Shown in pieces: positions 724-33,571 of a DNA stretch of 37,110 nt. Each line of letters begins with the position of its first letter. The stretch's first letter is position 1. The DNA is from a virus. The DNA lies in the IMG/VR virus record IMGVR_UViG_3300009537_000071, positions 1-37,110 of that record; one strand, given 5' to 3'. The translations under genes and the position numbers were made by a program. Under the pieces are notes generated by a model. It was not told where the DNA came from, made no database searches, and saw nothing but the letters and a program-made list of their open reading frames with translations.

Positions 724-798
724 TGGAAGCGGGGGCCGGACTCGAACCGACGACCTGCGGATTATGAGTCCGCCGTTCTGCCGCTGAACTACCCCGCA
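724..798 (-). tRNA. tRNA with CAU anticodon (Met or lysidine-Ile2 type)
   Basis: Read on the minus strand this folds as a tRNA: D-arm GTTC/GAAC, anticodon stem GCGGA/TCCGC around the loop CTCATAA (anticodon CAU), T-arm GTCGG-TTCGAGT-CCGGC, and an encoded CCA. Six acceptor pairs form (GCGGGG/CCCCGC). The first position would be T1 opposite T72, which does not pair. The anticodon stem lacks the three G-C pairs typical of initiator tRNA, so elongator Met or Ile2 (CAU read as AUA after lysidine modification) is more likely. It sits in the switch region between the HTH-like gene and the cro-like gene and looks phage-carried. Confidence 0.85.
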
Positions 799-1110: not shown

Positions 1111-1506
1111 ATGAAAGACATTTTTGCCGAGCGTTTCAAAGCAGAGCGGGTGCGTTTTGGGCTTACCCAGGACGACATTGCAGAGGTGTGCAAAAATCGC
1201 GATGGCGATCCTCCAAGCCGGGCAGCCATTGCGCAATGGGAAAAGGCCGGCGGCACAAAACCGAGCTTCGAGAATCTCGTGGCGGCCACACGACGCATGG
1301 GCACGTCGATTGATTATCTCGTTGGCTTAACCGACAAGCTCACACCAGAGCAAAAAAACCGGGTCTACATCGCAGCAGATGAAACAGGGGCATATAATCC
1401 CCTTTCCGACGAAGCCATACGCTTCGCCCAGCGCTGGCAGCGTTTGCCACCACCCATGAAAAAGGCCATTAAAGATTTGCTCGGAACGCTTCAATTGAAA
1501 AACTAA
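1111..1506 (+). CDS. CI-like lysogeny repressor (XRE HTH)
   Basis: A 131-residue protein with an XRE-type HTH domain in residues 1-75 (FGLTQDDIAEVCKNR, SRAAIAQWEKAGGTKPSFENL, then the SIDYLVGLTD end typical of these domains) and a short helical C-terminal region. There is no LexA-type peptidase domain, so RecA-stimulated self-cleavage is not expected, and induction must use another route. It diverges from the cro-like gene across three operators. The same operator type reappears over the promoter of the DGR operon. ATG 1111 has no clear Shine-Dalgarno. Confidence 0.85.
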   Translation: MKDIFAERFKAERVRFGLTQDDIAEVCKNRDGDPPSRAAIAQWEKAGGTKPSFENLVAATRRMGTSIDYLVGLTDKLTPEQKNRVYIAADETGAYNPLSDEAIRFAQRWQRLPPPMKKAIKDLLGTLQLKN

Positions 1507-1725: not shown

Positions 1726-1741
1726 TTCAGCCTAATCCATA

Positions 1742-1766
1742 GGCCCCGCCAGTCGGGGCCTTTTTT
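1742..1766 (+). terminator. Intrinsic terminator after the repressor operon
   Basis: Stem GGCCCCG (1742-1748) and CGGGGCC (1754-1760) with loop CCAGT, followed by six T. It closes the repressor and zinc/membrane protein transcript and separates it from the DGR operon promoter 24 bases further on. Confidence 0.9.
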
Positions 1767-1778
1767 ACGTCATACCTG

Positions 1779-1793
1779 TTAAGTCTGGCTTGA
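1779..1793. promoter_or_regulatory. Operator 4, over the DGR operon -35
   Basis: TTAAGTCTGGCTTGA matches the NNAAG-N5-CTTNN consensus of the three sites in the repressor/cro intergenic region. Its centre is 4 bases upstream of TTGACA and it shares bases with that hexamer, as operator 2 does at the leftward promoter. Confidence 0.7.
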
Positions 1794-1819
1794 CAGAGTG
1801 GTTAAGCTCTGCTTATCAT
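1790..1819 (+). promoter_or_regulatory. Rightward early promoter driving the DGR operon
   Basis: TTGACA at 1790-1795 is a perfect -35. TATCAT at 1814-1819 (18-base spacing; TTATCA at 17) is the -10. An ATG at 1826 follows 6 bases later, as at the cro-like promoter. Two operators cover the promoter. It lies downstream of the repressor terminator and upstream of about 8 kb of co-directional genes ending with the integrase. Confidence 0.75.
1802..1816. promoter_or_regulatory. Operator 5, over the DGR operon -10
   Basis: TTAAGCTCTGCTTAT, with a complete AAG-N5-CTT core, is centred 23 bases from operator 4, the same spacing as operators 1 and 2. It covers the spacer and the start of the -10. Confidence 0.7.
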
Positions 1820-1861: not shown

Positions 1862-2335
1862 ATGCGAACAAACACCGAATCATCTGCACAAACAGCACAT
1901 GCCCAAGCCATGCCAGCAAAGCCGCCGATCATGGAATGGCCGCTCGGCGAACTGCCGCGCATCGGTGCCGAATGGCCAGGCCAGGGCGGACGATTCGCCG
2001 GGATCGTGCGCGGGCAAGATGGCGCGCCGGATTACCTGCTGATTCTCGGCCCAGAGTACGACGGTGAGTTGCCATGGCAGCAGGCGATGGACTGGGCCGT
2101 TGCTCTTGAGATCGACGGCCACAAGGACTTCTCGCTGCCAACACGTGCCGAGCAGGCTGTGTTGTTCGGCAACATGCGCAACCAGTTCCAGCGAGACGGG
2201 TACTGGTCCTGTGAGCAGCACGCCGAGAGCGCCGGCTATGCCTGGATGCAGGGCTTCAACTACGGCAGCCAGATCAACCACCTCAAGGGCAATGAGTGGC
2301 GCGCACGTGCTGTCCGCAGATTAATTATTCAGTAA
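1862..2335 (+). CDS. DGR target protein 1 (CLec/DUF1566-like variable protein)
   Basis: A 157-residue protein from ATG 1862, which has GGAGG at 1853-1857. An in-frame ATG at 1826 sits at the expected transcription start and could make a leaderless longer form. The core (PRIGAEWPGQGGRFAGIVRG, GHKDFSLPTRAEQAVLFG, GYWSCEQHAES) follows the C-type-lectin-fold DUF1566 pattern of many DGR variable proteins. The last 35 residues are encoded by VR1 (2215-2321), and the surface-type variable positions coincide with template AAC or GAC codons. There is no signal peptide. It is a paralogue of target 3 (5156-5653). The ligand and location in the cell or virion are unknown. It is the first gene after the operator-covered promoter. 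Confidence 0.88.
   Translation: MRTNTESSAQTAHAQAMPAKPPIMEWPLGELPRIGAEWPGQGGRFAGIVRGQDGAPDYLLILGPEYDGELPWQQAMDWAVALEIDGHKDFSLPTRAEQAVLFGNMRNQFQRDGYWSCEQHAESAGYAWMQGFNYGSQINHLKGNEWRARAVRRLIIQ
2215..2321 (+). repeat. Variable repeat VR1
   Basis: Aligns without gaps to TR 6217-6323 (107 bases). It differs at 10 positions by hand count, every one an A in the TR (to G, T or C). Examples are AAC to AGC, AAC to GGC, AAC to TAC, AAC to ATC, CAC to CTC and GAC to GGC. The 5' end and the 3' segment from AATGAGTGG to GCAGAT are identical to the TR. It encodes the C-terminus of target 1. Confidence 0.95.
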
Positions 2336-2348
2336 TTTAATAATTTAA
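2335..2348 (+). repeat. 14-bp direct repeat after VR1 (copy 1)
   Basis: ATTTAATAATTTAA follows VR1 and occurs again at 5648-5661 after VR3. It suggests that targets 1 and 3 duplicated with their downstream flank. It may also be the AT-rich sequence that follows DGR target sites. Confidence 0.6.
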
Positions 2349-2357
2349 GGAGGGAAA

Positions 2358-2780
2358 ATGACCGCCACCGTCGTCGATCTCAACACGCACCGCCGCTACA
2401 AACGCGACTTGGACGGCGTCAAGGATTCTGTCGGCCAGGTCATCATGGATAACTACCGGCACCACCAGCTGGCCGATATCGCCTCCGGCATTCATGCCGC
2501 CTGCCGCGTCATCGACGCCGGCGGATCGTTCATGGATGCCATGGATGCCGCGGATAAAACCATCCAGATCGCCGCGCTCGGGGTAATGCCTGCGCAACGC
2601 ACCGCCCGCCTCTTGCGGCTGGCCGAAGGCGAACTGCGCACCCGCCTGGCCGGGCAACCGGAACACGACATTGTGTCGGCAGTGGCGCGTGCGCGCCGTG
2701 TGCTGGAAGGCGGCGGCACCTGGTGCGCCGCAGTCTATCTTGCGCTCGGCGGTGAACTCGAAGGACCGGGGGCGGCATGA
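2358..2780 (+). CDS. Hypothetical protein, alanine-rich helical
   Basis: A 140-residue protein with a strong AGGAGG upstream of ATG 2358. It is rich in alanine and helical. The second half has an evenly spaced pattern (LLRLAEGELRTRLAG, IVSAVARARRVLEGGGTW). No recognised domain, signal peptide or membrane segment. Its stop overlaps the next ATG (ATGA), so it is translationally coupled to the CsrA-like gene. Function unknown. Confidence 0.7.
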   Translation: MTATVVDLNTHRRYKRDLDGVKDSVGQVIMDNYRHHQLADIASGIHAACRVIDAGGSFMDAMDAADKTIQIAALGVMPAQRTARLLRLAEGELRTRLAGQPEHDIVSAVARARRVLEGGGTWCAAVYLALGGELEGPGAA

Positions 2781-2956
2781 GGCTGCTGCTCATCGGCACC
2801 ATTGGCGACAGCAAGTTCGTCTCGAATCTCGGTGCCGAGATCGAGATCAAAGTGGTGAACATCAAAAACAACCGCGTGCTGTTCGAGGTGGTCACCAGAA
2901 AACCGGCAGCGCACGCGGCGGATGATCCGATGTTCCTGAAGAGGCAGGCGGATTGA
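2777..2956 (+). CDS. Small CsrA-like protein (candidate RNA-binding regulator)
   Basis: A 59-residue protein starting in an ATGA overlap with the upstream gene. The pattern MRLLLIGTIGDSKFVSNLG then EIEIKVVNIKNNRVLFEV then KPAAHA follows the strand order of CsrA (G-E-x-hydrophobic, I-x-I-x-V, N-x-V-x-F/I-G-V, P-x-x-x-x-V-H-R). The Arg44-type residue of CsrA is not clearly present. If the fold is right, it would bind GGA motifs in mRNA leaders and adjust host or phage translation. This is a resemblance read by eye, and a generic small beta protein is the alternative. It is in frame with tight neighbours on both sides, which supports it being a real gene. Confidence 0.55.
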   Translation: MRLLLIGTIGDSKFVSNLGAEIEIKVVNIKNNRVLFEVVTRKPAAHAADDPMFLKRQAD

Positions 2957-3150
2957 TGATGCGAAATATAAAAACACTGTGGACGCGCTTTCGCGTGTGG
3001 CGCCTGAACCGCTGGGCCGACGAAATGCTGCGCGACTCTGAATTTCACAAACGTGCGGCATCGGAACACCGCATTGCGGCATCGCTGTATTGGAGCAAGG
3101 CCAGCGACGCGCGCTCGCTGGCAAGCCGTCTGCAGGCGGCGGGACTGTAG
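2956..3150 (+). CDS. Small basic hypothetical protein
   Basis: A 64-residue protein starting in a TGATG overlap with the previous stop (an ATG also at 2959). It is strongly basic and helical (RFRVWRLNRWADEMLRDSEF, then AASEHRIAASLYWSKASDAR). No signal peptide. Many early-region phage proteins look like this and bind nucleic acid or host enzymes, but nothing here allows a specific assignment. Confidence 0.6.
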   Translation: MMRNIKTLWTRFRVWRLNRWADEMLRDSEFHKRAASEHRIAASLYWSKASDARSLASRLQAAGL

Positions 3151-3159
3151 GCGCACACC

Positions 3160-3381
3160 GTGACCGAGCGCGCGGCCGTGATGATCGGCAACCACCCGGT
3201 AACCTTCACGCCGCATTACCTGCCAGGCGTCGGCGCGCGTGTGCTGGTACACGACAGCTGCCCGGGGCCGCGCAACCTGTCGCCGGACGATGCGCGTCTG
3301 TTTGCGGCGCATTACAAGATTGCCGCCGACGAGTCCGAATCAATCCAGCGTCGTAATCTGCAACGCCGTCCAGCGGCGTAA
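3160..3381 (+). CDS. Hypothetical protein
   Basis: A 73-residue reading frame starting at GTG 3160; an ATG at 3181 is an alternative start giving MIGNHPVTFTPHYLPG. It follows the previous gene by 9 bases and has no strong ribosome site. It has a short beta-rich N-terminal half and an acidic then basic end. No family is recognised. Its place in a tightly packed co-directional series is the main support. Confidence 0.5.
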   Translation: MTERAAVMIGNHPVTFTPHYLPGVGARVLVHDSCPGPRNLSPDDARLFAAHYKIAADESESIQRRNLQRRPAA

Positions 3382-3412
3382 ATTTAACAAGTAACACAAA
3401 GGAGCATCGCAA

Positions 3413-3811
3413 ATGAAACATCTAACGCAGTTATTGTTCGTCGTGTTGTCCGTTGCTGTTGCCATTCCCGCGTTCGCCTTCGATGTGCGCATCGCCGCCG
3501 GCGGCCTGGCGCGCGACGAGGACCGGCAAGTGGTGCAGCTGGGTGTGGACATGGCCGGGTTTCAGCCCACCTACACCGCCTGGCACGAACAGCGCGCCGC
3601 ATCGCTGCTATACGCCAAGCGCTGGCAGTATTTCGAGCTGGCCGGCGGCCCCGCCTACGTGTCGCCGGAACAGGGTGATGCTGGCATCGCCGCGCACGTG
3701 CGCCTCGGGCCGCGTATTGGACCGTTCTTCGTGGTGTATGAAACGCTGATCCATGATGGCAGGGCCACGAACATCATCATGGGCGGCGTGCAGTTTCACC
3801 TCGGGCGCTGA
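3413..3811 (+). CDS. Secreted/periplasmic protein with signal peptide
   Basis: A 132-residue protein with a clear ribosome site (AAAGGAG) and a Sec signal peptide: MKHLTQLLFVVLSVAVAIPA followed by FAFD, cleavage likely after AFA near residue 22. The mature part alternates aromatic and small residues and ends GGVQFHLGR, a pattern like outer-membrane or periplasmic beta structures. The cell-surface lysis-side protein at 9882-10421 has a similar late pattern (VRIxxG, RWQYFELAGGPAYV). It is an exported protein in an early operon, so a superinfection or envelope-modifying role is possible. Confidence 0.65.
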   Translation: MKHLTQLLFVVLSVAVAIPAFAFDVRIAAGGLARDEDRQVVQLGVDMAGFQPTYTAWHEQRAASLLYAKRWQYFELAGGPAYVSPEQGDAGIAAHVRLGPRIGPFFVVYETLIHDGRATNIIMGGVQFHLGR

Positions 3812-3827
3812 CTTGAGGGATTTAACC

Positions 3828-4037
3828 ATGAGGATCTCGTTCACGATCACCGCGAAAGAAAGCGAAACCGCAAGCGACTGGATAAAAAATCATAAATGCG
3901 CGCAGCGTGGTCATTACCCCGGCCCGATCGGCGGGACAATTTCTTTTTGCTTCACCGAAACAACCATCGGAACAATCGTGGTTGTTAAATGCGGGTGTGG
4001 TCAAGAATTGAATTTAACCGATTTCAGCAACTGGTAA
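3828..4037 (+). CDS. Small Cys-containing hypothetical protein
   Basis: A 69-residue protein from ATG 3828 with GAGGG upstream; a longer frame from 3753 only overlaps the previous gene. It has a beta-rich core (ISFCFTETTIGTIVVVKCGC) with a C-x-C pair and two other cysteines plus histidines (HKCAQRGHY), which could bind zinc. Function unknown. Confidence 0.65.
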   Translation: MRISFTITAKESETASDWIKNHKCAQRGHYPGPIGGTISFCFTETTIGTIVVVKCGCGQELNLTDFSNW

Positions 4038-4047
4038 TTACAGAGCC

Positions 4048-4374
4048 ATGGCCAAACGCGCACCCAAAACACCCACCATCACAATCCTCGACCGCGCCCT
4101 CGCCAAGGCGCAGGAATCCGAGGCACCGTTTTATGAGTCGATGAAACTCATGAAGCAAGCCGCCGACGAACTGCGGCCGGTGCTCGCCGAAGGCAGCCTG
4201 TATTTCAGCGCCATGCGGGCGCTGTACACCATCGCCACGGTGCCGTGCGAATCCGGCGAAGTTCAACCGCGGCATAAGGATTGCCCGGGCGCACTGGCCG
4301 CCAAGGCAATGGAAGAATCGGAGCGCTGCTGGCCGTGCTATGCGCGGCATGTGTTGAAGGGTGGCGCGCCGTGA
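4048..4374 (+). CDS. Hypothetical protein with C-terminal CxxC
   Basis: A 108-residue protein. The N-terminal half is helical (LDRALAKAQESEAPFYESMK). The C-terminal half has four cysteines, VPCESG, HKDCPG and RCWPCYARH, that could form a small zinc site. Its stop overlaps the next start (GTGA). No family is recognised. Confidence 0.65.
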   Translation: MAKRAPKTPTITILDRALAKAQESEAPFYESMKLMKQAADELRPVLAEGSLYFSAMRALYTIATVPCESGEVQPRHKDCPGALAAKAMEESERCWPCYARHVLKGGAP

Positions 4375-4577
4375 GCCGCCAACTCGAAACCAAGGGTTAC
4401 TGCTACATCGCCTGCGAGATACGCCGCACCACCGACAAGGCCGTGCTAATCCATGACGGCGCGATCGAGGCGTGGATCCCGCGCAGCCAGATCGAGGACC
4501 CGGAAGAATTTGAAACCGGCGCACACGTTGAAATGTTGATGCCGGAATGGTTGGCGAAGGATAAGGGTCTCATCTGA
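4371..4577 (+). CDS. Small hypothetical protein
   Basis: A 68-residue protein from GTG 4371, overlapping the preceding stop as GTGA. The sequence IRRTTDKAVLIHDGAIEAWI followed by PRSQI is a beta-rich motif common in small phage and plasmid proteins. It sits immediately upstream of target 2. Function unknown. Confidence 0.65.
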   Translation: MSRQLETKGYCYIACEIRRTTDKAVLIHDGAIEAWIPRSQIEDPEEFETGAHVEMLMPEWLAKDKGLI

Positions 4578-4610
4578 GCACGCATTATCCATATCAAAAT
4601 AGGAGCGAAT

Positions 4611-5120
4611 ATGAAAAAACTGCAAATTGTTTCCGCCACACCAGGTGCCGCCTTTGGTGGCGGCTTCTACGCCGGCCGCTTCTTCATCGGCGACCAGCCC
4701 CATGCGCTGATCGTTGCGCCGAAGGCTAAGGGGCAGATCGACGCGATAGCGTGGAACAAATCGTTGAAGATCGTCGCCGGTGCCACGAGCTATTGCGACG
4801 GCCTTGCCAATACAAAAGCGATGGCAAAGGCCGGCAGCACGCTGGCCAAGAAAATAATGAAGCTGCGGATCGGCGGCTTCGATGATTGGCACCTGCCGAG
4901 CCGCCTGCAGCTGTTGATGGCCTACCACGAGCTCGCGGCAGCAAAGAATTTTGCGCGCGGCGCAGAAGAGGCGTTCGATTTTGCATGGTACTGGTCGAGT
5001 ACGCAGCACGCCGAGGGCGCCGACTATGCCTGGATGCAGCTCTTCAGCTACGGCTACCAGGGCGGCGGCCACAAGGCCAATGAGTGGCGCGCACGTGCTG
5101 TCCGCACGATCAAACTTTAA
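4611..5120 (+). CDS. DGR target protein 2 (DUF1566-like variable protein)
   Basis: A 169-residue protein with AGGAG upstream of ATG 4611. The core FDDWHLPSRLQLLMAYHEL followed by FAWYWSSTQHAE is the canonical DUF1566 pattern (WRLP...L, YWSST), a C-type-lectin-type fold used by DGR proteins. The last 35 residues are encoded by VR2 (5001-5106), after which a private tail (TIKL) replaces the RL tail of targets 1 and 3. The N-terminal half differs from targets 1 and 3, so this is a separate scaffold carrying the same variable end. It has no signal peptide. The ligand is unknown. Confidence 0.88.
   Translation: MKKLQIVSATPGAAFGGGFYAGRFFIGDQPHALIVAPKAKGQIDAIAWNKSLKIVAGATSYCDGLANTKAMAKAGSTLAKKIMKLRIGGFDDWHLPSRLQLLMAYHELAAAKNFARGAEEAFDFAWYWSSTQHAEGADYAWMQLFSYGYQGGGHKANEWRARAVRTIKL
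5001..5106 (+). repeat. Variable repeat VR2
   Basis: Aligns without gaps to TR 6215-6320 (106 bases) and differs at 14 positions, all A in the TR. It is the most diverged repeat: three consecutive AAC codons have become GGC, and AAC has also become CTC, TAC and AGC. Identity with the TR stops at GCA, two to three bases earlier than in VR1 and VR3. Confidence 0.95.
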
Positions 5121-5155
5121 CCATTTATCCATTCATCAATTTAGGAGCCAATACG

Positions 5156-5653
5156 ATGCAACTCACCAGAAACGGAGTGACCATCCAGGTCGAAGAATCC
5201 ACGGTTATGGCACTGGTCATGCAGAGCGTGATGGAGAATCGGCACCCTGTACTGCATGAAGGCATCATCACCACACCGCCGCGCATCGGCGCAGTGTGGC
5301 CAGGGCAAGGCGGCACCTATGCCGGCATCATGCGCGGCCGTGATGGCGGGCAGGATTATTATCTGATCGTCGGCGATTCCACTGAGGAAACAACCTGGGA
5401 AAAGGCGAAGGCCGCCGCCGCTTCGATGAAGGCAGACGGGCACAAGGATTTTACCTTGCCATTCCGCGCCGAGCAGGCGCTGCAATTTGCCAACGTGCCG
5501 GAGTTGTTCAAGAAGGAAGGGTATTGGTCCTGTGAGCAGCACGCCGAGTACGCCGACTATGCCTGGGTGCAGGGCTTCGACTACGGCATCCAGGACTTCT
5601 ACCACAAGGGCAATGAGTGGCGCGCACGTGCTGTCCGCAGATTAGCCATTTAA
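5156..5653 (+). CDS. DGR target protein 3 (paralogue of target 1)
   Basis: A 165-residue protein with TTAGGAG upstream of ATG 5156; the longer frame from 5084 overlaps VR2 and is rejected. Residues 41 to the end match target 1 closely (PRIGAVWPGQGGTYAGIMRG, GHKDFTLPFRAEQALQF, GYWSCEQHAE). The first 40 residues differ. The C-terminal 35 residues are encoded by VR3 (5536-5642). It has the same CLec/DUF1566-like fold as target 1 and lies directly upstream of avd, TR and RT, the usual position of a DGR target. Confidence 0.9.
   Translation: MQLTRNGVTIQVEESTVMALVMQSVMENRHPVLHEGIITTPPRIGAVWPGQGGTYAGIMRGRDGGQDYYLIVGDSTEETTWEKAKAAAASMKADGHKDFTLPFRAEQALQFANVPELFKKEGYWSCEQHAEYADYAWVQGFDYGIQDFYHKGNEWRARAVRRLAI
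5536..5642 (+). repeat. Variable repeat VR3
   Basis: Aligns without gaps to TR 6217-6323 and differs at 12 positions, all A in the TR, including ATG to GTG in the WMQ codons and AAC to TTC. The 3' constant part through GCAGAT is identical to the TR and VR1. Confidence 0.95.
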
Positions 5654-5661
5654 TAATTTAA
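5648..5661 (+). repeat. 14-bp direct repeat after VR3 (copy 2)
   Basis: ATTTAATAATTTAA, identical to 2335-2348 after VR1. See the entry for the first copy. Confidence 0.6.
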
Positions 5662-5680
5662 CAATTTCGATTTTATCAGC

Positions 5681-6037
5681 ATGGCCCTTCATACATCACT
5701 GCCAATCTACAAGGTCGCCTACGACCTGCTGAGTGTGGCCACAGACTACGTGCAGAACATGCCGCGTCCGTTCAAGGCTGCAATCGGCGGGCGCGTTCGC
5801 GATCTGTGCGTGGATCTGGTGTTGTTGATCTTCAAGGCCAACTGCGCGCGGGACAAGGGGCCGCATCTCGATACCCTGCTCGAACGGCTGGAGGAACTGA
5901 ACCTGCTGCTCCGGCTCTGCCGGGACAAACGCTTCATTTCAACCGGCCAGTACGCCAAGGCCATTGAACTCACAGCCAGCGTCGGCAAGCAAGCCAACGG
6001 ATGGAGAAAACACAATGCATCGTCGCCTGTTGCCTGA
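5681..6037 (+). CDS. avd: DGR accessory variability determinant (Avd)
   Basis: A 118-residue all-helical protein of the bAvd/S23-like four-helix-bundle type: helix 1 YKVAYDLLSVATDYVQNMP, helix 2 RDLCVDLVLLIFKANCAR, helix 3 LLERLEELNLLLRLCRDKRF, helix 4 YAKAIELTASVGKQANGW. It is close to the usual length (about 120-130). Avd forms a pentameric, positively charged barrel that binds the reverse transcriptase and the TR RNA and is needed for mutagenic cDNA synthesis. It lies between target 3 and the TR, as in Bordetella phage BPP-1. The upstream ribosome site is weak. Confidence 0.92.
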   Translation: MALHTSLPIYKVAYDLLSVATDYVQNMPRPFKAAIGGRVRDLCVDLVLLIFKANCARDKGPHLDTLLERLEELNLLLRLCRDKRFISTGQYAKAIELTASVGKQANGWRKHNASSPVA

Positions 6038-6214
6038 CCGTCAAGGCGGTCCTGCCCGTGCGATTCTTGATCTGGTCGCGCCGCTGGCTCACAAGGCCAC
6101 CGCCATGCACACCACGGAGATCGCCGGCCACCAATCCGTGCCGGGCCGCTCCGGTGCAGTTTCCCCGCTGATCGGCGCGAGCCTTCGGCAGGGCGACATC
6201 GATAGCGCGAACCA

Positions 6215-6323
6215 ACGCAGCACGCCGAGAACGCCGACTATGCCTGGATGCAGAACTTCAACAACGGCAACCAGAACAACAACCACAAGGACAATGAGTG
6301 GCGCGCACGTGCTGTCCGCAGAT
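6215..6323 (+). repeat. DGR template repeat (TR)
   Basis: This is the only copy rich in AAC codons: eight AAC and two GAC codons between 6230 and 6295 in the frame used by the targets. All three VRs align to it without gaps, and the 36 differences fall only at its adenines. Its 5' border is ACGCAGCACG and its 3' constant segment runs from AATGAGTGG to GCAGAT (GCA for VR2). It is unusual in overlapping the start of the RT frame (ATG 6294). The same 3' segment therefore encodes WRARAVR in the targets and GAHVLSAD in the RT frame. Confidence 0.96.
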
Positions 6324-7448
6324 GAAACCGATGCAAAGACCGGCCATGCTGATTTTTCTTTCGAGGAACTGGTAATCGCCTACTTCGACTGCCGCCGCAC
6401 CAAGCGCAACAAACCATCCGCGCTCGCCTTCGAGCAGGATCTGGAGCACAACCTGATGCGGCTTTACGAAGCGCTGCAGGATGGCTCTTATCGGCCAGGT
6501 CCGTCCATCTGCTTTGTCATCACCCGCCCCAAGCCGCGCGAGGTGTGGGCCGCGGACTTCAGCGACCGCATTGTGCACCACCTGCTCTACAACCGCATCG
6601 CGCCACGGTTCTATGCCGCGTTCATCGCCGACTCCTGTGCCTGCATACCCGGCCGTGGCACACTCTACGCCGCCCAGCGTCTCGATGCCAAGGTGCGCAG
6701 CATCACACAGAACTGGTCGCGTCCGGCATGGTATCTGAAACTCGACCTCGCCAATTTCTTCGTCAGCATCGACAAGCGCATTCTGCGTGATCGACTGGCA
6801 GCACGTGTCACCGAGCCCTGGTGGTTGTGGCTCACCGAAACCATCTTGTTCCACGATCCACGCCCGGATGCATTGCTACACAGTCCGCCGGAACGCATGG
6901 CGCTCATCCCGCCGCACAAGAGCCTATTCAACCAGCCGGCGCATCGCGGCCTTCCGATTGGCAACCTGTCATCACAGTTCTTCGCCAACGTCTATCTCGA
7001 CGCGCTCGACCAATATGCCAAGCACCGGGTGCAGGCAAGGCACTACATCCGCTACGTCGACGACTTCGTACTACTGCACGAATCACCGCAGTGGCTCAAC
7101 GCTGCACACGATGACATCGAAGCGTTCTTAGCCGAGACATTGGCCGTCCGGCTGAACCCGACCAAAACCATCCTGCAGCCCATCGATCGCGGCATCGATT
7201 TCGTCGGTCAGGTCATAAAACCATGGCGCCGAACCCTGCGCCGGCGCACGTTGAACGATGCGCTGCACCGGGTTTCCAACATGGAGCCAGATCGGCTGTT
7301 CGAGTCATCCAACAGTTATTTCGGCCTATTGCGCCAAGCCACGCACAGCCATGCTGACAGGGCGCGGCTTACCAATGTACTGCTCCGGCGCGGGCAGTCT
7401 GTGAATCACTCGCTTACGAAAACATACCGACGGAGACCAAGCCCATGA
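6294..7448 (+). CDS. DGR reverse transcriptase
   Basis: A 384-residue group-II-like reverse transcriptase. Motif A is YLKLDLANFF (Asp151), the DGR-type motif 4 is LPIGNLSSQFFAN (residues 220-232), and the catalytic box is RYVDD (Tyr254-Asp257) followed by LNPTKT and IDFVGQVI. The SQ of IGNLSSQ replaces the QG of other RTs and is linked to low fidelity at template A. The start is uncertain: the frame is open back to 5964. ATG 6294 lies inside the TR with a poorly spaced AAGGA, while ATG 6015 has GGAG and overlaps the avd end but would add 93 residues read through the TR. The conserved domain begins near FSFEELVIAYFDCRR, so both forms keep it. Confidence 0.95.
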   Translation: MSGAHVLSADETDAKTGHADFSFEELVIAYFDCRRTKRNKPSALAFEQDLEHNLMRLYEALQDGSYRPGPSICFVITRPKPREVWAADFSDRIVHHLLYNRIAPRFYAAFIADSCACIPGRGTLYAAQRLDAKVRSITQNWSRPAWYLKLDLANFFVSIDKRILRDRLAARVTEPWWLWLTETILFHDPRPDALLHSPPERMALIPPHKSLFNQPAHRGLPIGNLSSQFFANVYLDALDQYAKHRVQARHYIRYVDDFVLLHESPQWLNAAHDDIEAFLAETLAVRLNPTKTILQPIDRGIDFVGQVIKPWRRTLRRRTLNDALHRVSNMEPDRLFESSNSYFGLLRQATHSHADRARLTNVLLRRGQSVNHSLTKTYRRRPSP

Positions 7449-8467: not shown

Positions 8468-8783
8468 CCTAGCCGACGCTGCCAAGCTACTGAAAATGCA
8501 CCCTCAAACGGCTCTGAGGCTGGCGCGTGCTGGCTTGATTCCGGCCGCCAAGCCGGGGAAATGCTGGGTCTTTATAGACGATGATTTGATTGATTGGCTC
8601 AGGTCGCATTATGCTTCCCCACGGCATGTGTCGCAGGGGCGGGAGAAACCTCTATGGCACTTTACAAAAGGAAAGACTCTGCCGTCTGGTGGGTCAGATT
8701 CACGGCCCCCAGCGGACGAGAAGTACGCCGCAGCTCTGGCACTACCGACAAAAGGCAAGCCAAGGAATACGAAGACAGCCTGA
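8454..8783 (+). CDS. Excisionase-type HTH protein
   Basis: A 109-residue protein from ATG 8454 (an in-frame ATG also at 8439). Residues 1-50 (LADAAKLLKMHPQTALRLAR, AGLIPAAKPGKCWVFIDDDL, IDWL) match the HTH_17 excisionase/MerR-like winged-helix pattern. It overlaps the integrase by 130 bases in a different frame. The last 40 residues lie in that overlap and look unstructured. The place directly before int suggests a recombination directionality factor. Confidence 0.75.
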   Translation: MRTLDLADAAKLLKMHPQTALRLARAGLIPAAKPGKCWVFIDDDLIDWLRSHYASPRHVSQGREKPLWHFTKGKTLPSGGSDSRPPADEKYAAALALPTKGKPRNTKTA

Positions 8784-9685
8784 AGTCGAAGTTGTGGCGA
8801 GTGGAGAACCTTGGAGAGAAGCCAAGGCGGCTATGGCAGGAAGCGGTTTTGCGGTTCGTCGAGGAACAAGAAGGCCAGCCTTCCTTACCAGTACAGAAAA
8901 TGCACCTCCGGTCACTGGATCAATGGCTGCGAGGTAGGTTTCTGGATGAGATCGGGAGGGACGTTCTGGACAACGTAGCCAAGGCAAGGAAGGCCGAAGG
9001 AGTATCATCGGCAACGGTGAACAGAATGCTTGAAGTGGTAAGGGCTGTATTGCGGCGGGCAGTCAGGGAATGGGAGTGGATTGACAAGGCGCCGGCTGTG
9101 CGGATGCTGAAGGTCAGCAAAAAACGCATTCGCTGGCTGACGCACGATGAGGCAGAAAGGCTATTGTCTGCCCTTCCGTCTCATCTTGAAGCCATGGCAA
9201 GGTTCACACTGGCAGCAGGTCCGAGGGAAAGAAATGTTGCGGGTCTTGAATGGTCACAGCTCGACCTGACAAGGAAGGTGGCATGGATTCACCCGGACCA
9301 GTCCAAGACGAAGAAAGCCTATGCTGTACCACTGAATGCCGATGCTGTAGCGGTAATCAGGAAACAGATCGGCAAGCACCCAACGCACGTATTCACCTAT
9401 CGCGGTGAGCCCGTGAAGCGGTGCAACAATCATGGATGGCGGACGGCGATCAAGAAGGCTGGCATTAAAGACTTCCGCTGGCACGACTTGAGACACACCT
9501 GGGCAAGCTGGCATGTCCAATCAGGAACGCCATTACAGGTTTTGCAGGAGCTCGGTGGATGGGCGACTTACAAGATGGTTCTGGTTTATGCCCACCTATC
9601 TGCCGGTCATCTTGCCGAGCATTGCGAAAATCTCGTCACGTTTTCCGGCACAGTGAATAAGTCGAGCGGTTCTGAAGTAGCGTAA
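8654..9685 (+). CDS. int: Tyrosine recombinase, phage integrase
   Basis: A 343-residue integrase from ATG 8654 with GGGAG upstream. It has an N-terminal Arm-type region (MALYKRKDSAVWWVRF), a SAM-like core-binding domain (residues about 60-155) and a catalytic domain. Catalytic residues: Arg191 (AAGPRERN, where TGLR is usual), His277 and Arg280 (HDLRHTWASW), Trp in LGGWA, and Tyr312 (VYAHLS). A tRNA-Lys 3' fragment lies 13 bases after the stop, giving the likely attP core. It is the last gene of the rightward early operon. Confidence 0.95.
   Translation: MALYKRKDSAVWWVRFTAPSGREVRRSSGTTDKRQAKEYEDSLKSKLWRVENLGEKPRRLWQEAVLRFVEEQEGQPSLPVQKMHLRSLDQWLRGRFLDEIGRDVLDNVAKARKAEGVSSATVNRMLEVVRAVLRRAVREWEWIDKAPAVRMLKVSKKRIRWLTHDEAERLLSALPSHLEAMARFTLAAGPRERNVAGLEWSQLDLTRKVAWIHPDQSKTKKAYAVPLNADAVAVIRKQIGKHPTHVFTYRGEPVKRCNNHGWRTAIKKAGIKDFRWHDLRHTWASWHVQSGTPLQVLQELGGWATYKMVLVYAHLSAGHLAEHCENLVTFSGTVNKSSGSEVA
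9637..9653 (+). repeat. 17-bp direct repeat flanking attP (copy 1)
   Basis: CACGTTTTCCGGCACAG inside the last codons of the integrase. An identical copy is at 9852-9868 on the other side of the att core. It is a candidate integrase arm-type site. Confidence 0.55.
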
Positions 9686-11743: not shown

Positions 11744-12288
11744 TCCCCGTTCTCCTGTCCGATAATGGATTGCGCGCTGAACACCAGCGCGTCCGCCAGC
11801 GCCGCACAGGCCGGGTGCCGGCGCTCCTGAATCGTTGACCAGTTGTAGATGAACTCCGGCTCGACAATAATGGCCGGCCGCGCGGTCTGCGCCAGCAGCG
11901 CATCGGGGCCTTTGCTCTTGTCCATCTGATACCAGCCTTGCTTCGCGCCGCGCGATGGCGGAAAAATGCCGGCCAGCGCCTGCTGTACTATTTCCGCCGA
12001 GGCATGGCCGAGCAGTGAGCCCGGGCAATACAGGGTTTCGCTGCCGTGCTGGCGCTTGCTCTCGTCGCTGTTGAAATGGATCTCGCAAATCAGGCTGATA
12101 TTTTTCTGCGCGTTGATCCAGGCTATTTTTTCCGGCAGCCGGCCGGTGGGCACCATGTTCACCGGCGAGCGCCCGCGGATCAGGTTGGCGACTTCGGATG
12201 CCCACAGAATAGCCTCGTCGTATTCGTTGTGTCCGTTGTAGCTGGCGCCCTTGGCGAGCGGGTGATGGCCGGCGGAGATCAGGATCAT
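11740..12288 (-). CDS. Endolysin: N-acetylmuramoyl-L-alanine amidase
   Basis: A 182-residue amidase_3-fold enzyme starting MILISAGHHPLAKGASYNG; the start at 12288 removes a leader that overlaps the previous gene. Likely zinc and catalytic residues are His in SAGHH, Glu in HNEYDEA, His in CEIHFNS and Glu in IIVEPEFIYN. It cleaves the bond between MurNAc and L-Ala of peptidoglycan at lysis. It has no signal peptide, so it needs a holin; the candidate is two genes downstream. Confidence 0.85.
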   Translation of the reverse strand: MILISAGHHPLAKGASYNGHNEYDEAILWASEVANLIRGRSPVNMVPTGRLPEKIAWINAQKNISLICEIHFNSDESKRQHGSETLYCPGSLLGHASAEIVQQALAGIFPPSRGAKQGWYQMDKSKGPDALLAQTARPAIIVEPEFIYNWSTIQERRHPACAALADALVFSAQSIIGQENGE

Positions 12289-12298
12289 GGCGGCGCCC

Positions 12299-12619
12299 TC
12301 AAGCGGTCCGCACTTTGCAGGTGAGCGGAATTTCCCAGTGCCCGTCGAGCGTTCCATATACGGCATCCACGTGTGCCGTATATGCCGCGTCCGGCGTCAG
12401 CACCAGGTCCTTGTCGATCACCTTGCGGAACTTGCCGCTCGAGGCGGCGACATAGTCGAGCGCCAACGGGAATGTGATCCCCGCGACGGTGTTGCCGTCG
12501 GAATCCTTGATGGCGGTGAGGGTGACGCTGGCCGTGGCGTCGGCATAACCGGCGGCGGTGCTGTCTTTGAGTCCATCGACTTCGATCAGGTTGTCGTTCA
12601 GGTAGTACAGGATGCGCAT
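12299..12619 (-). CDS. Hypothetical virion-associated protein
   Basis: A 106-residue protein (MRILYYLNDNLIEVDGLKDS) rich in Ala, Thr and Asp with repeated beta-type segments. Located between the large LamG/repeat protein and the amidase. It resembles small tail or baseplate accessory proteins of siphophages in composition. No family is recognised. Confidence 0.6.
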   Translation of the reverse strand: MRILYYLNDNLIEVDGLKDSTAAGYADATASVTLTAIKDSDGNTVAGITFPLALDYVAASSGKFRKVIDKDLVLTPDAAYTAHVDAVYGTLDGHWEIPLTCKVRTA

Positions 12620-12629
12620 CGGTTCGTCC

Positions 12630-13937
12630 TCATGGGTTTATTTTTGCGCGGCCGGCCAGCGCCGCTTCGATGTTGAGCGTGGCCGCAACGGCGGCGGACA
12701 GGGAGGCGCGGCCGGCGAGTGCCGGCACGATGTTGAGCGTGGCCAGCAGCCGGGCATTGACCGGCGACGCTCCGGTCACCAACGCCAGCGCGATATCGAT
12801 CTCGGACACCTGGCCGATCGCGCGCGCCTTGTCGTGGCTGATCGCGATCGCGCTGTCGGACTCGATCACCTGATTGACCGCCATCAACCGAACCCGCGAA
12901 GCGCCGATCGCCATGTCGGACTCGACGGCCTGGCCGATCGCGGCGTTCTTGGCGCTTGCGATCTCAAACGCGACCGAAGTTTCGGTTGGTTGCCCGATCA
13001 CTATGGTTTTCGATCCAGACGTGGTAACCGGCTGCGCGGTATCGGCTTCCGTTGTCTGACTGACCGCCACACGCTTGGCGTGCGTGACGGCCTGCGCGGT
13101 ATCCGCCTCGACCGGCTGACCGATGGACAACGCCTTATGCGCCGTGACGGACTGCGCGGTGTCGGCCTCGATCGCCTGGCCTGCAGATTCAACCTTGCCG
13201 TGTGTGAGCGGCTGCGCGGTGTCGATTTCCGTTGCCTGGCCGATTTCAACAGCGCCGCCCCCACCCGCCGCCACCTGCACTCCATGCCATTTCGGGGTAA
13301 ACAGCGTGACGGGCGGACCGTTGTCGCGAGTCGCCCCGGTGACGGTTCCGGATAATCGGCTCGGGCCGTAGTCCGGCTCCGGGCTTTGCAGCCCGTCAAA
13401 CGGGGCGTGAAAGATAATCGACCCTGGCCGTATCCTGCGCGGATCAACGCCGCGCACCATCGCGGCAATCTCATCCACGGTTAATGCGGCTGACCACAAC
13501 GTGGGCAACGCTATCCGTCCATTGATTAACTCTGAATCGCTGCCGTTCTGTCCGAAGATGAGAGGTGCTGAATTTCCGCCGGGAAGGTTACCGGTAATGG
13601 CCCCGGTGGCCGTTTCCGTCCCGTCCTTGTACAAACGCAGTGTCGAGCCGTCATAGGTCGAAACACAAAGGTGCCAGACATCGGCGGTGAGAGCCCCGTA
13701 GCTTCTGTTCTTAAAAGAAGATGTCGTCCACAGGTTCGATCCATAATCATTTGAAGCTGTGCCTTTTAACTGTAGCGGGGTGAAGTGTCCGTCCTTCCGG
13801 AAGTAATCCTCATCGTTGGAGCGCTTTGCGGTCTTGTAAACCCATACCGCTGCCGAAACTGCGGGAAGGTCGTCAAGGATGCTCGTACTTCCGAACGATA
13901 TGCTGTTGTTCCCGGTGTTCGGAAAGTACCTGGACAT
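12630..13937 (-). CDS. LamG-domain protein with eight 20-residue repeats (fibre-like)
   Basis: A 435-residue protein. Residues 1-170 form a LamG/concanavalin-like jellyroll (WHLCVSTYDGSTLRLYKDGT, then LPTLWSAALTVDEIAAM), a carbohydrate-binding fold. Residues about 229-388 are eight tandem units near 20 residues with consensus IGQ-x-x-E-x-DTA-Q-x-V-T-x-x-K. Then come two copies of ATLNI(V/E)-x-ALAGRA. There is no signal peptide. It is probably a virion appendage or receptor-binding accessory rather than an enzyme. The repeats would form an elongated stalk; this is inferred from periodicity. Confidence 0.75.
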   Translation of the reverse strand: MSRYFPNTGNNSISFGSTSILDDLPAVSAAVWVYKTAKRSNDEDYFRKDGHFTPLQLKGTASNDYGSNLWTTSSFKNRSYGALTADVWHLCVSTYDGSTLRLYKDGTETATGAITGNLPGGNSAPLIFGQNGSDSELINGRIALPTLWSAALTVDEIAAMVRGVDPRRIRPGSIIFHAPFDGLQSPEPDYGPSRLSGTVTGATRDNGPPVTLFTPKWHGVQVAAGGGGAVEIGQATEIDTAQPLTHGKVESAGQAIEADTAQSVTAHKALSIGQPVEADTAQAVTHAKRVAVSQTTEADTAQPVTTSGSKTIVIGQPTETSVAFEIASAKNAAIGQAVESDMAIGASRVRLMAVNQVIESDSAIAISHDKARAIGQVSEIDIALALVTGASPVNARLLATLNIVPALAGRASLSAAVAATLNIEAALAGRAKINP

Positions 13938-33215: not shown

Positions 33216-33545
33216 TTACAGGTTCCAGTCGTCGTTGCCGAATCCGCCGTTGCCGTTTTTCATTTTCCGCGCGATGCGGGTCACGGTATCCGGGTGCAAC
33301 TTATGTTTCGCCGCCACCGTGCGCGGATCGCTGGTGGCGCGCAGCTCGGAGGCGATGCGCGCGTCGCGCGGCACCTTGTCCGGCTTCGGCCAGTAGTGCG
33401 CCCGCCCGCCGAACCGGCCCTGCAGCTCGCCGCAGATTTTTTCCGCCTCGCTCAGTGCCGTTACGTCGTCCACCGCCGGGCGCGTCAACAACTCATAGAA
33501 CCGGTCGAGGACGGCATCGAGCAGTTCGCGGTCGCGGTCGGCCAT
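33216..33545 (-). CDS. Mor/C-family transcription activator-like protein
   Basis: A 109-residue protein from ATG 33545. After an acidic helix it has ICGELQGRFGGRAHYWPKPD, the GG-x-x-x-Y-x-P-K turn of Mu Mor, then a helix-turn-helix (RTVAAKHKLHPDTVTRIARK). Mor/C proteins bind dyads upstream of middle and late promoters and recruit RNA polymerase. The C-terminus NGGFGNDDWNL resembles the end of TerL (GGGFGSDGWNL). It lies directly upstream of a copy of the 43-base element. A small terminase role is an alternative, since none is seen elsewhere. Confidence 0.75.
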   Translation of the reverse strand: MADRDRELLDAVLDRFYELLTRPAVDDVTALSEAEKICGELQGRFGGRAHYWPKPDKVPRDARIASELRATSDPRTVAAKHKLHPDTVTRIARKMKNGNGGFGNDDWNL

Positions 33546-33571
33546 CGGGGTTATGTTCCGCTCATTCCTGG

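Follow-up and report, generated by a model that had tools for sequence, protein, structure and literature searches.

Diversity-generating retroelements (DGRs) of phages are generally explained as host-range switches that act on tail proteins. In the BPP-1 system (mtd-avd-TR-brt), a single target is located in the tail operon on the late-gene strand, and a structured RNA (RF03022, Phage_DGR) follows the template repeat (TR) on the 3´ side. This RNA recruits bRT-Avd and primes complementary DNA (cDNA) synthesis (PMC12875486). The VHML-type DGRs of Vibrio phage VP58.5 and Pseudoalteromonas phage ACA1 carry one large target, also in a tail module on the late strand. Here we describe the DGR in a 37,110-nt stretch of viral DNA (IMG/VR record IMGVR_UViG_3300009537_000071), the whole of which is referred to as the window. 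This DGR shares with BPP-1 the Avd protein, a TR, a bRT-type reverse transcriptase (RT), adenine-specific change and a target of C-type-lectin fold with a variable repeat (VR) at its 3´ end; with VP58.5 and ACA1 it shares Avd-TR-RT and a TR that adjoins the RT open reading frame (ORF). In contrast to both, it has three targets in a predicted early operon, and unlike in BPP-1, the structured RNA (RT-15) is positioned 5´ of a TR that overlaps the RT ORF. The DGR itself is of a known kind, and the early placement and the RNA layout are its variant features. Taken together, the locus is likely to be a genuine DGR of a lambda-like temperate phage, with a CI-controlled early operon, a 5´ RT-15 RNA and targets that bind inside the cell.

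The components of the cassette are arranged as follows.

1862 to 2335, plus strand: target gene 1, a stand-alone Lcl_C protein of 157 amino acids (aa); first gene after the pL-like promoter.
2215 to 2318, plus strand: VR1; 10 substitutions, all on TR adenines.
4611 to 5120, plus strand: target gene 2, a stand-alone Lcl_C protein of 169 aa; PF07603 at 46.6 bits; AlphaFold2 predicted local distance difference test (pLDDT) 95.7; best PDB match 8Q4E.
5003 to 5106, plus strand: VR2; 14 substitutions, all on TR adenines.
5156 to 5653, plus strand: target gene 3, an Lcl_C protein of 165 aa with a short N-terminal hairpin and helix; AlphaFold2 pLDDT 93.1; best PDB match 8Q4E.
5536 to 5639, plus strand: VR3; 12 substitutions, all on TR adenines.
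5681 to 6037, plus strand: avd, accessory variability determinant; PF22296 6e-15; phrog_3206 8e-34.
6021 to 6217, plus strand: RT-15 structured RNA (RF03018); 168.4 bits with a cut-off of 82; ends at the TR 5´ boundary.
6217 to 6323, plus strand: TR; 6217–6320 is common to all three VRs.
6294 to 7448, plus strand: RT ORF; phrog_1423 4e-119; BPP-1 bRT (8UB7) 4e-37; IGNLSSQ and YVDD motifs.

The VRs sit in the 3´ ends (C-terminal codons) of the three target genes. The first-pass annotation had described a complete DGR in which three VRs align to one TR without gaps, and all components were identified here. Recomputed alignments of TR positions 6217–6320 with the three VRs are gapless, and the hand counts of 10, 14 and 12 differences proved exact. 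All 36 differences are located on template adenines (21 A>G, 12 A>T and 3 A>C), with none at any other base in any of the VRs. Given 33 adenines among 104 positions, the chance that every difference falls on an adenine is 3.5e-6 for VR1, 1.0e-8 for VR2 and 2.1e-7 for VR3, each VR taken separately. The identity of TR with VR1 and VR3 extends to position 6323. The farthest VR is 4002 nt from the TR, as the earlier estimate of about 4 kb had it. A DNA hairpin just downstream of the VRs, which is a feature of BPP-1, was found neither in the window (z = 0.61, 0.65 and -0.02) nor across 344 VRs of the family described below (mean z -0.79).

Avd and an RT with IGNLSSQ and YVDD motifs had been proposed to complete the set, and the profile matches and motifs agree, with the Avd match to NF033474 falling below the cut-off of that model. 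In the RT alignment of the family, window included, IGNLSSQ is present in 164 of 166 sequences and YVDD in 165 of 166. The catalytic residues, whose inactivation had been named as evidence that would speak against the element, are intact and nearly invariant across the family. The most likely ATG of the RT ORF (6294) sits inside the TR, such that the TR and the RT overlap; this overlap and the structured RNA at 6021–6217 were both absent from the first-pass annotation.

Each of the 24 other family loci scanned has an RT-15 match, and none was found in the DGR-less phage Aurca01. In the relatives, the 3´ end of RT-15 coincides with the 5´ boundary of the TR within a few nt, truncated VR alignments excepted. 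RNAalifold predicted 48 base pairs from 38 family sequences, 33 of which show compensatory changes. Conservation drops past the TR, and synonymous constraint is near baseline by approximately RT codon 25; Rfam matching, conservation and synonymous constraint revealed no conserved RNA within the RT coding region 3´ of the TR. It is strongly suggested that the 5´ structured RNA belongs to the template transcript. The DGR family of the window therefore has an RNA layout different from that of BPP-1, in that its structured RNA precedes the TR on the 5´ side instead of following it on the 3´ side. Located just 5´ of the TR, RT-15 would probably fill the role of the BPP-1 3´ spacer RNA, that is, recruit RT-Avd and set the cDNA end. 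The RT-n RNAs reportedly go back to the work of Weinberg et al. in 2017, and no mention of the RT-15 RNA or RF03018 was found in the literature searched. In VP58.5, a weak RT-14 match below the cut-off (6924–7043) lies directly 3´ of the TR, whereas RT-15 of the window lies 5´; the VP58.5 match suggests that the RT-n families may include several DGR template RNAs.

A protein search returned at least 80 viral contigs and at least 80 bacterial genome loci with 60–84% identical RTs, and a plasmid search returned just distant RTs (<60% identity). The named hosts are mostly beta- and gammaproteobacteria among the matches listed, and the named phages with RTs of >60% identity are Magia, QDWS, SC_8_H2H8_2017, Cruim01, phPA-G, Haboob and LPPA56. 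The records OP650936.1 (Hujiaoplasma phage zrk29-1) and OK094664.1 (Shewanella phage vB_Sb_QDWS) share a length of 47,902 and have equal RT identity to the query, possibly one phage with two host labels. Magia, QDWS, phPA-G, Haboob and Cruim01 are the closest named relatives, with 61–69% identical RTs, the same gene order and two to three Lcl_C targets. RT-15 precedes the TR in all four that were scanned. The other modules of this group are unlike those of the window; Magia, for instance, is a myophage. Two targets, genes 47 and 57, were reported for Burkholderia phage Magia (PMC7883833); a third Magia VR (12516–12608) is located in gene 46, which the published announcement does not list among the targets.

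VRs were counted in 169 loci, three DGR-less phages among them. Two VRs were present in 103 loci, three in 37, four in 2, one in 19 and none in 8. The view of the first-pass annotation that multi-target DGRs are less common needs qualifying: several VRs occur in 28.6% of DGRs in one survey (PMC6642488), and two to three targets are the norm in this family (140 of 169 loci). The window is a typical three-target member of a large temperate-phage family. One target usually lies ~650–750 nt and another ~1.1–1.4 kb upstream of the TR, and further targets are found up to 9.5 kb away.

Across the 344 family VRs, untrimmed, 4331 of 9307 adenines are changed (0.465) compared with 148 of 16,557 other bases (0.009). 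A search for A-site changes in relatives had been advised, and near-identical relatives, phage isolates among them, were indeed found to differ in their VRs almost solely at TR adenines. Three pairs (phPA-G/Haboob and the loci L017/L018 and L024/L025) have nearly identical RT DNA and an identical TR. The orthologous VRs of phPA-G and Haboob differ at 13 and 12 positions, all of which are TR-adenine positions, as are all 14 VR differences between L017 and L018 and all 18 between L024 and L025. L015 and L017, with one TR mismatch, differ at TR adenines in 20/20 and 17/19 cases. Between Cruim01 and Aurca01, the VR of a remote target located 9.1 kb from the TR differs at 15 sites, all on TR adenines, with 2.7% divergence outside the VR; remote targets are therefore real targets. 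The corresponding counts are 11/12 for the middle target and 21/23 for the proximal target, whose genes are 24% divergent outside the VR. As judged by sequence comparison, the element is a complete, bona fide DGR of a widespread multi-target family, in the relatives of which the VRs turn over at adenine sites.

Two further observations concern these loci. Aurca01, a relative of Cruim01, lacks Avd, TR and RT and keeps the three target genes; a RecB-like gene (11986–13805) replaces the Avd, RT-15, TR and RT of Cruim01, which represents loss or gain of the DGR machinery with the targets retained. In Janthinobacterium sp. UMAB-56 (locus L165, 6573–7722), one VR shows two alignment offsets 3 nt apart, as if a codon had been gained or lost.

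The window is from a lambda-like siphovirus. The minus strand encodes a GpA-type terminase, portal, protease-capsid fusion, tape measure and central tail fibre J, together with cro and a CII-like gene; cI, the DGR and the integrase are on the plus strand, so the DGR cassette is on the strand opposite to the terminase, portal and tail genes. A tRNA-Met (CAT) gene (724–798, minus strand) lies between the cro-like and CII-like genes. The features around the cassette are as follows; the regulatory region 1741–1819 was absent from the first-pass annotation.

1039 to 1053, 1062 to 1076 and 1087 to 1101, no strand assigned: three palindromic predicted operators, OR-like, in the cro-cI interval; TTAAGN5CTTAA with at most 2 mismatches; spacing 23 and 25 nt.
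1111 to 1506, plus strand: cI-type repressor (HTH_3); PF01381, phrog_8/phrog_4.
1741 to 1761, plus strand: hairpin followed by a T run, resembling a terminator, at the end of the cI operon; 8-pair stem with 7 G-C pairs, then TTTTTT.
1779 to 1819, plus strand: pL-like promoter, TTGACA (from 1790), 18 nt, TATCAT (to 1819), with two overlapping predicted operators at 1779–1793 and 1802–1816; identified by sequence pattern.
8660 to 9685, plus strand: tyrosine integrase, closing the early operon region; PF00589 9.5e-31.

The operator clusters have the same layout as OR and OL/pL of lambda. The motif TTAAGN5CTTAA (at most 2 mismatches) occurs five times in the 37-kb window, three times in the cro-cI interval and twice over the promoter of target 1, with a chance expectation of 2.4 anywhere. 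No plus-strand terminator was seen between 1862 and 8090. Of 134 loci searched de novo, 11 showed the two-cluster operator layout upstream of the targets, and all 402 shuffled controls lacked it; a related scan showed the same layout in Magia and Cruim01. In UMAB-56, the first target starts ~50 nt past the second operator cluster. In Pseudomonas phage D3, three OR operators are annotated, and the same motif occurs twice around a TTGACA just upstream of orf68, which is likewise a stand-alone Lcl_C protein and the first gene past the pL operators; no A-biased repeat was found next to orf68. The RT and the terminase are encoded on opposite strands in 33 of the 34 contigs with a terminase match, and the integrase is on the RT strand in 28 of 36 contigs. 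CI-controlled early transcription of the cassette is strongly suggested. The targets are probably early, non-tail proteins, because of the pL-like operon placement, the recurring operators and the layout in D3.

All three targets match Lcl_C, which has a C-type-lectin fold, two of them slightly under the Pfam cut-off, and targets 1 and 3 are paralogues. The C-terminal domain of Legionella Lcl (8Q4E) is the closest solved fold for the modelled targets 2 and 3. Lcl is a secreted collagen-like adhesin; in the window, the domain stands alone and has no signal peptide. No added tail domain was seen in the AlphaFold2 models of targets 2 and 3. Target proteins of the family mostly comprise ~120–220 residues. 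Export of the targets by signal peptide or as lipoproteins was rejected, with a lipobox in 0 of 275 family targets and an N-terminal hydrophobic stretch in 8 of 275, as scored by a hydropathy proxy rather than a trained predictor. Because they are single C-type-lectin-fold domains without a signal peptide or a tail domain, the targets are most likely intracellular binders. Lcl_C homologues that have no DGR beside them also occupy early positions elsewhere: they follow cI in D3, phi_D3 and FBPa42, and one lies within the terminal repeat region of the jumbo phage PA5oct (5001–5213). Stand-alone Lcl_C homologues are carried by related jumbo Pseudomonas phages too; no information on the PA5oct copy was found in the published PA5oct paper.

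Several targets per system are likewise present in the cellular DGRs of Thiohalocapsa PB-PSB1, the targets of which were proposed as conflict-system sensors, not adhesins (PMC10907252). Those are bacterial clade 5 DGRs tied to defence modules, whereas the targets of the window are phage-borne single domains. The BPP-1 record annotates a 'variable region 2' (33229–33558) inside bbp36, in the early cI-integrase operon and away from the TR and VR of the tail operon.

The anatomy of the locus suggests the following course. When CI repression is lifted, by infection or induction, the pL-like promoter at 1790–1819 would fire, and a single early message would span target 1, the intervening genes, targets 2 and 3, avd, RT-15, the TR and the RT. 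RT-Avd would copy the single TR, making errors at its adenines, and mutagenic retrohoming would put these copies in place of the 3´ ends of the three genes, a step that the comparison of relatives shows for the family. Fresh variants would enter replicating genomes and be put to the test at an early stage of the following infection. The targets, which are probably CI-controlled early proteins without signal peptides and not tail fibres, would bind something inside the host cell, for example a host or defence protein, instead of serving as tail receptors.

Several points weigh against such an early, intracellular role. The two-cluster operator test was positive in just 11 of 134 loci, although it is strict enough that the window, Magia and Cruim01 are not listed by it and the cI region is missing from many loci. 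The integrase is on the other strand in 8 of 36 contigs, one contig has the RT and the terminase on the same strand, and in Magia a terminator is annotated immediately upstream of one target. The timing could be altered by a promoter inside the 2.3–5.7 kb stretch, and the operators and their CI binding are predictions from the DNA pattern. In other phages, long tail fibres can also end in a C-terminal Lcl_C domain, so an early product could still reach the virion.

The last point bears on a conventional tropism-switching DGR, in which the small Lcl_C proteins would be non-covalently attached receptor-binding parts of the tail that are merely encoded in an unusual place. Tail proteins are the main targets of phage DGRs in clades 1, 4 and 6 (PMC8144416), and the DGRs of BPP-1, VP58.5 and ACA1 are in tail modules, consistent with this explanation. 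It is nevertheless rather unlikely here: the cassette runs opposite to the late operon in nearly all contigs, the targets are stand-alone without an attachment domain and several per phage, predicted CI operators of pL type precede target 1, and DGR-less homologues come first in the D3 pL operon and in the PA5oct terminal-repeat region. Lysogenic conversion, with prophage-made targets that alter the lysogen, for example by superinfection exclusion or sensing, is likewise improbable. Genes of this type are usually found where the cassette sits, between cI and the integrase on the cI strand, but given the terminator after the cI unit (1741–1761) and the operators over the promoter of target 1, the targets would be repressed in a lysogen, and they carry no secretion signals by the hydropathy proxy. 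A decayed DGR with fossil VRs would account for the unchanged VRs that some near-identical contigs from different samples keep (e.g., L043–L046). This is very unlikely, as the RT motifs and the ORFs are intact, and family pairs have identical TRs yet different VRs; the lack of any non-A difference between TR and VRs further indicates that little time, measured against the pace of point mutation, has passed since the last retrohoming. Repeats that arose by chance, or by plain gene duplication with no DGR involved, for which the paralogy of targets 1 and 3 might speak, are ruled out for practical purposes by the 36/36 differences on template adenines, together with Avd, the RT and RT-15.

The reading preferred here thus remains that of early proteins that bind inside the cell, the binding itself being an inference from the domain architecture. 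More tentatively, this temperate-phage family as a whole may use the DGR to diversify immediate-early intracellular proteins, a small hypervariable repertoire of binders directed, for instance, at host defence or at takeover targets, under CI/Cro control and with a 5´ RNA layout opposite to that of BPP-1. The position of RT-15 at the TR 5´ boundary provides a concrete candidate function for this RNA and suggests that the RNA architecture of BPP-1 is not universal. Because the family includes isolated phages, the timing of expression, the content of the virion and the binding partners are open to direct experiment. Should a large DGR family indeed diversify proteins that are made early and are not part of the virion, phages would also be using targeted hypermutation within the infected cell.

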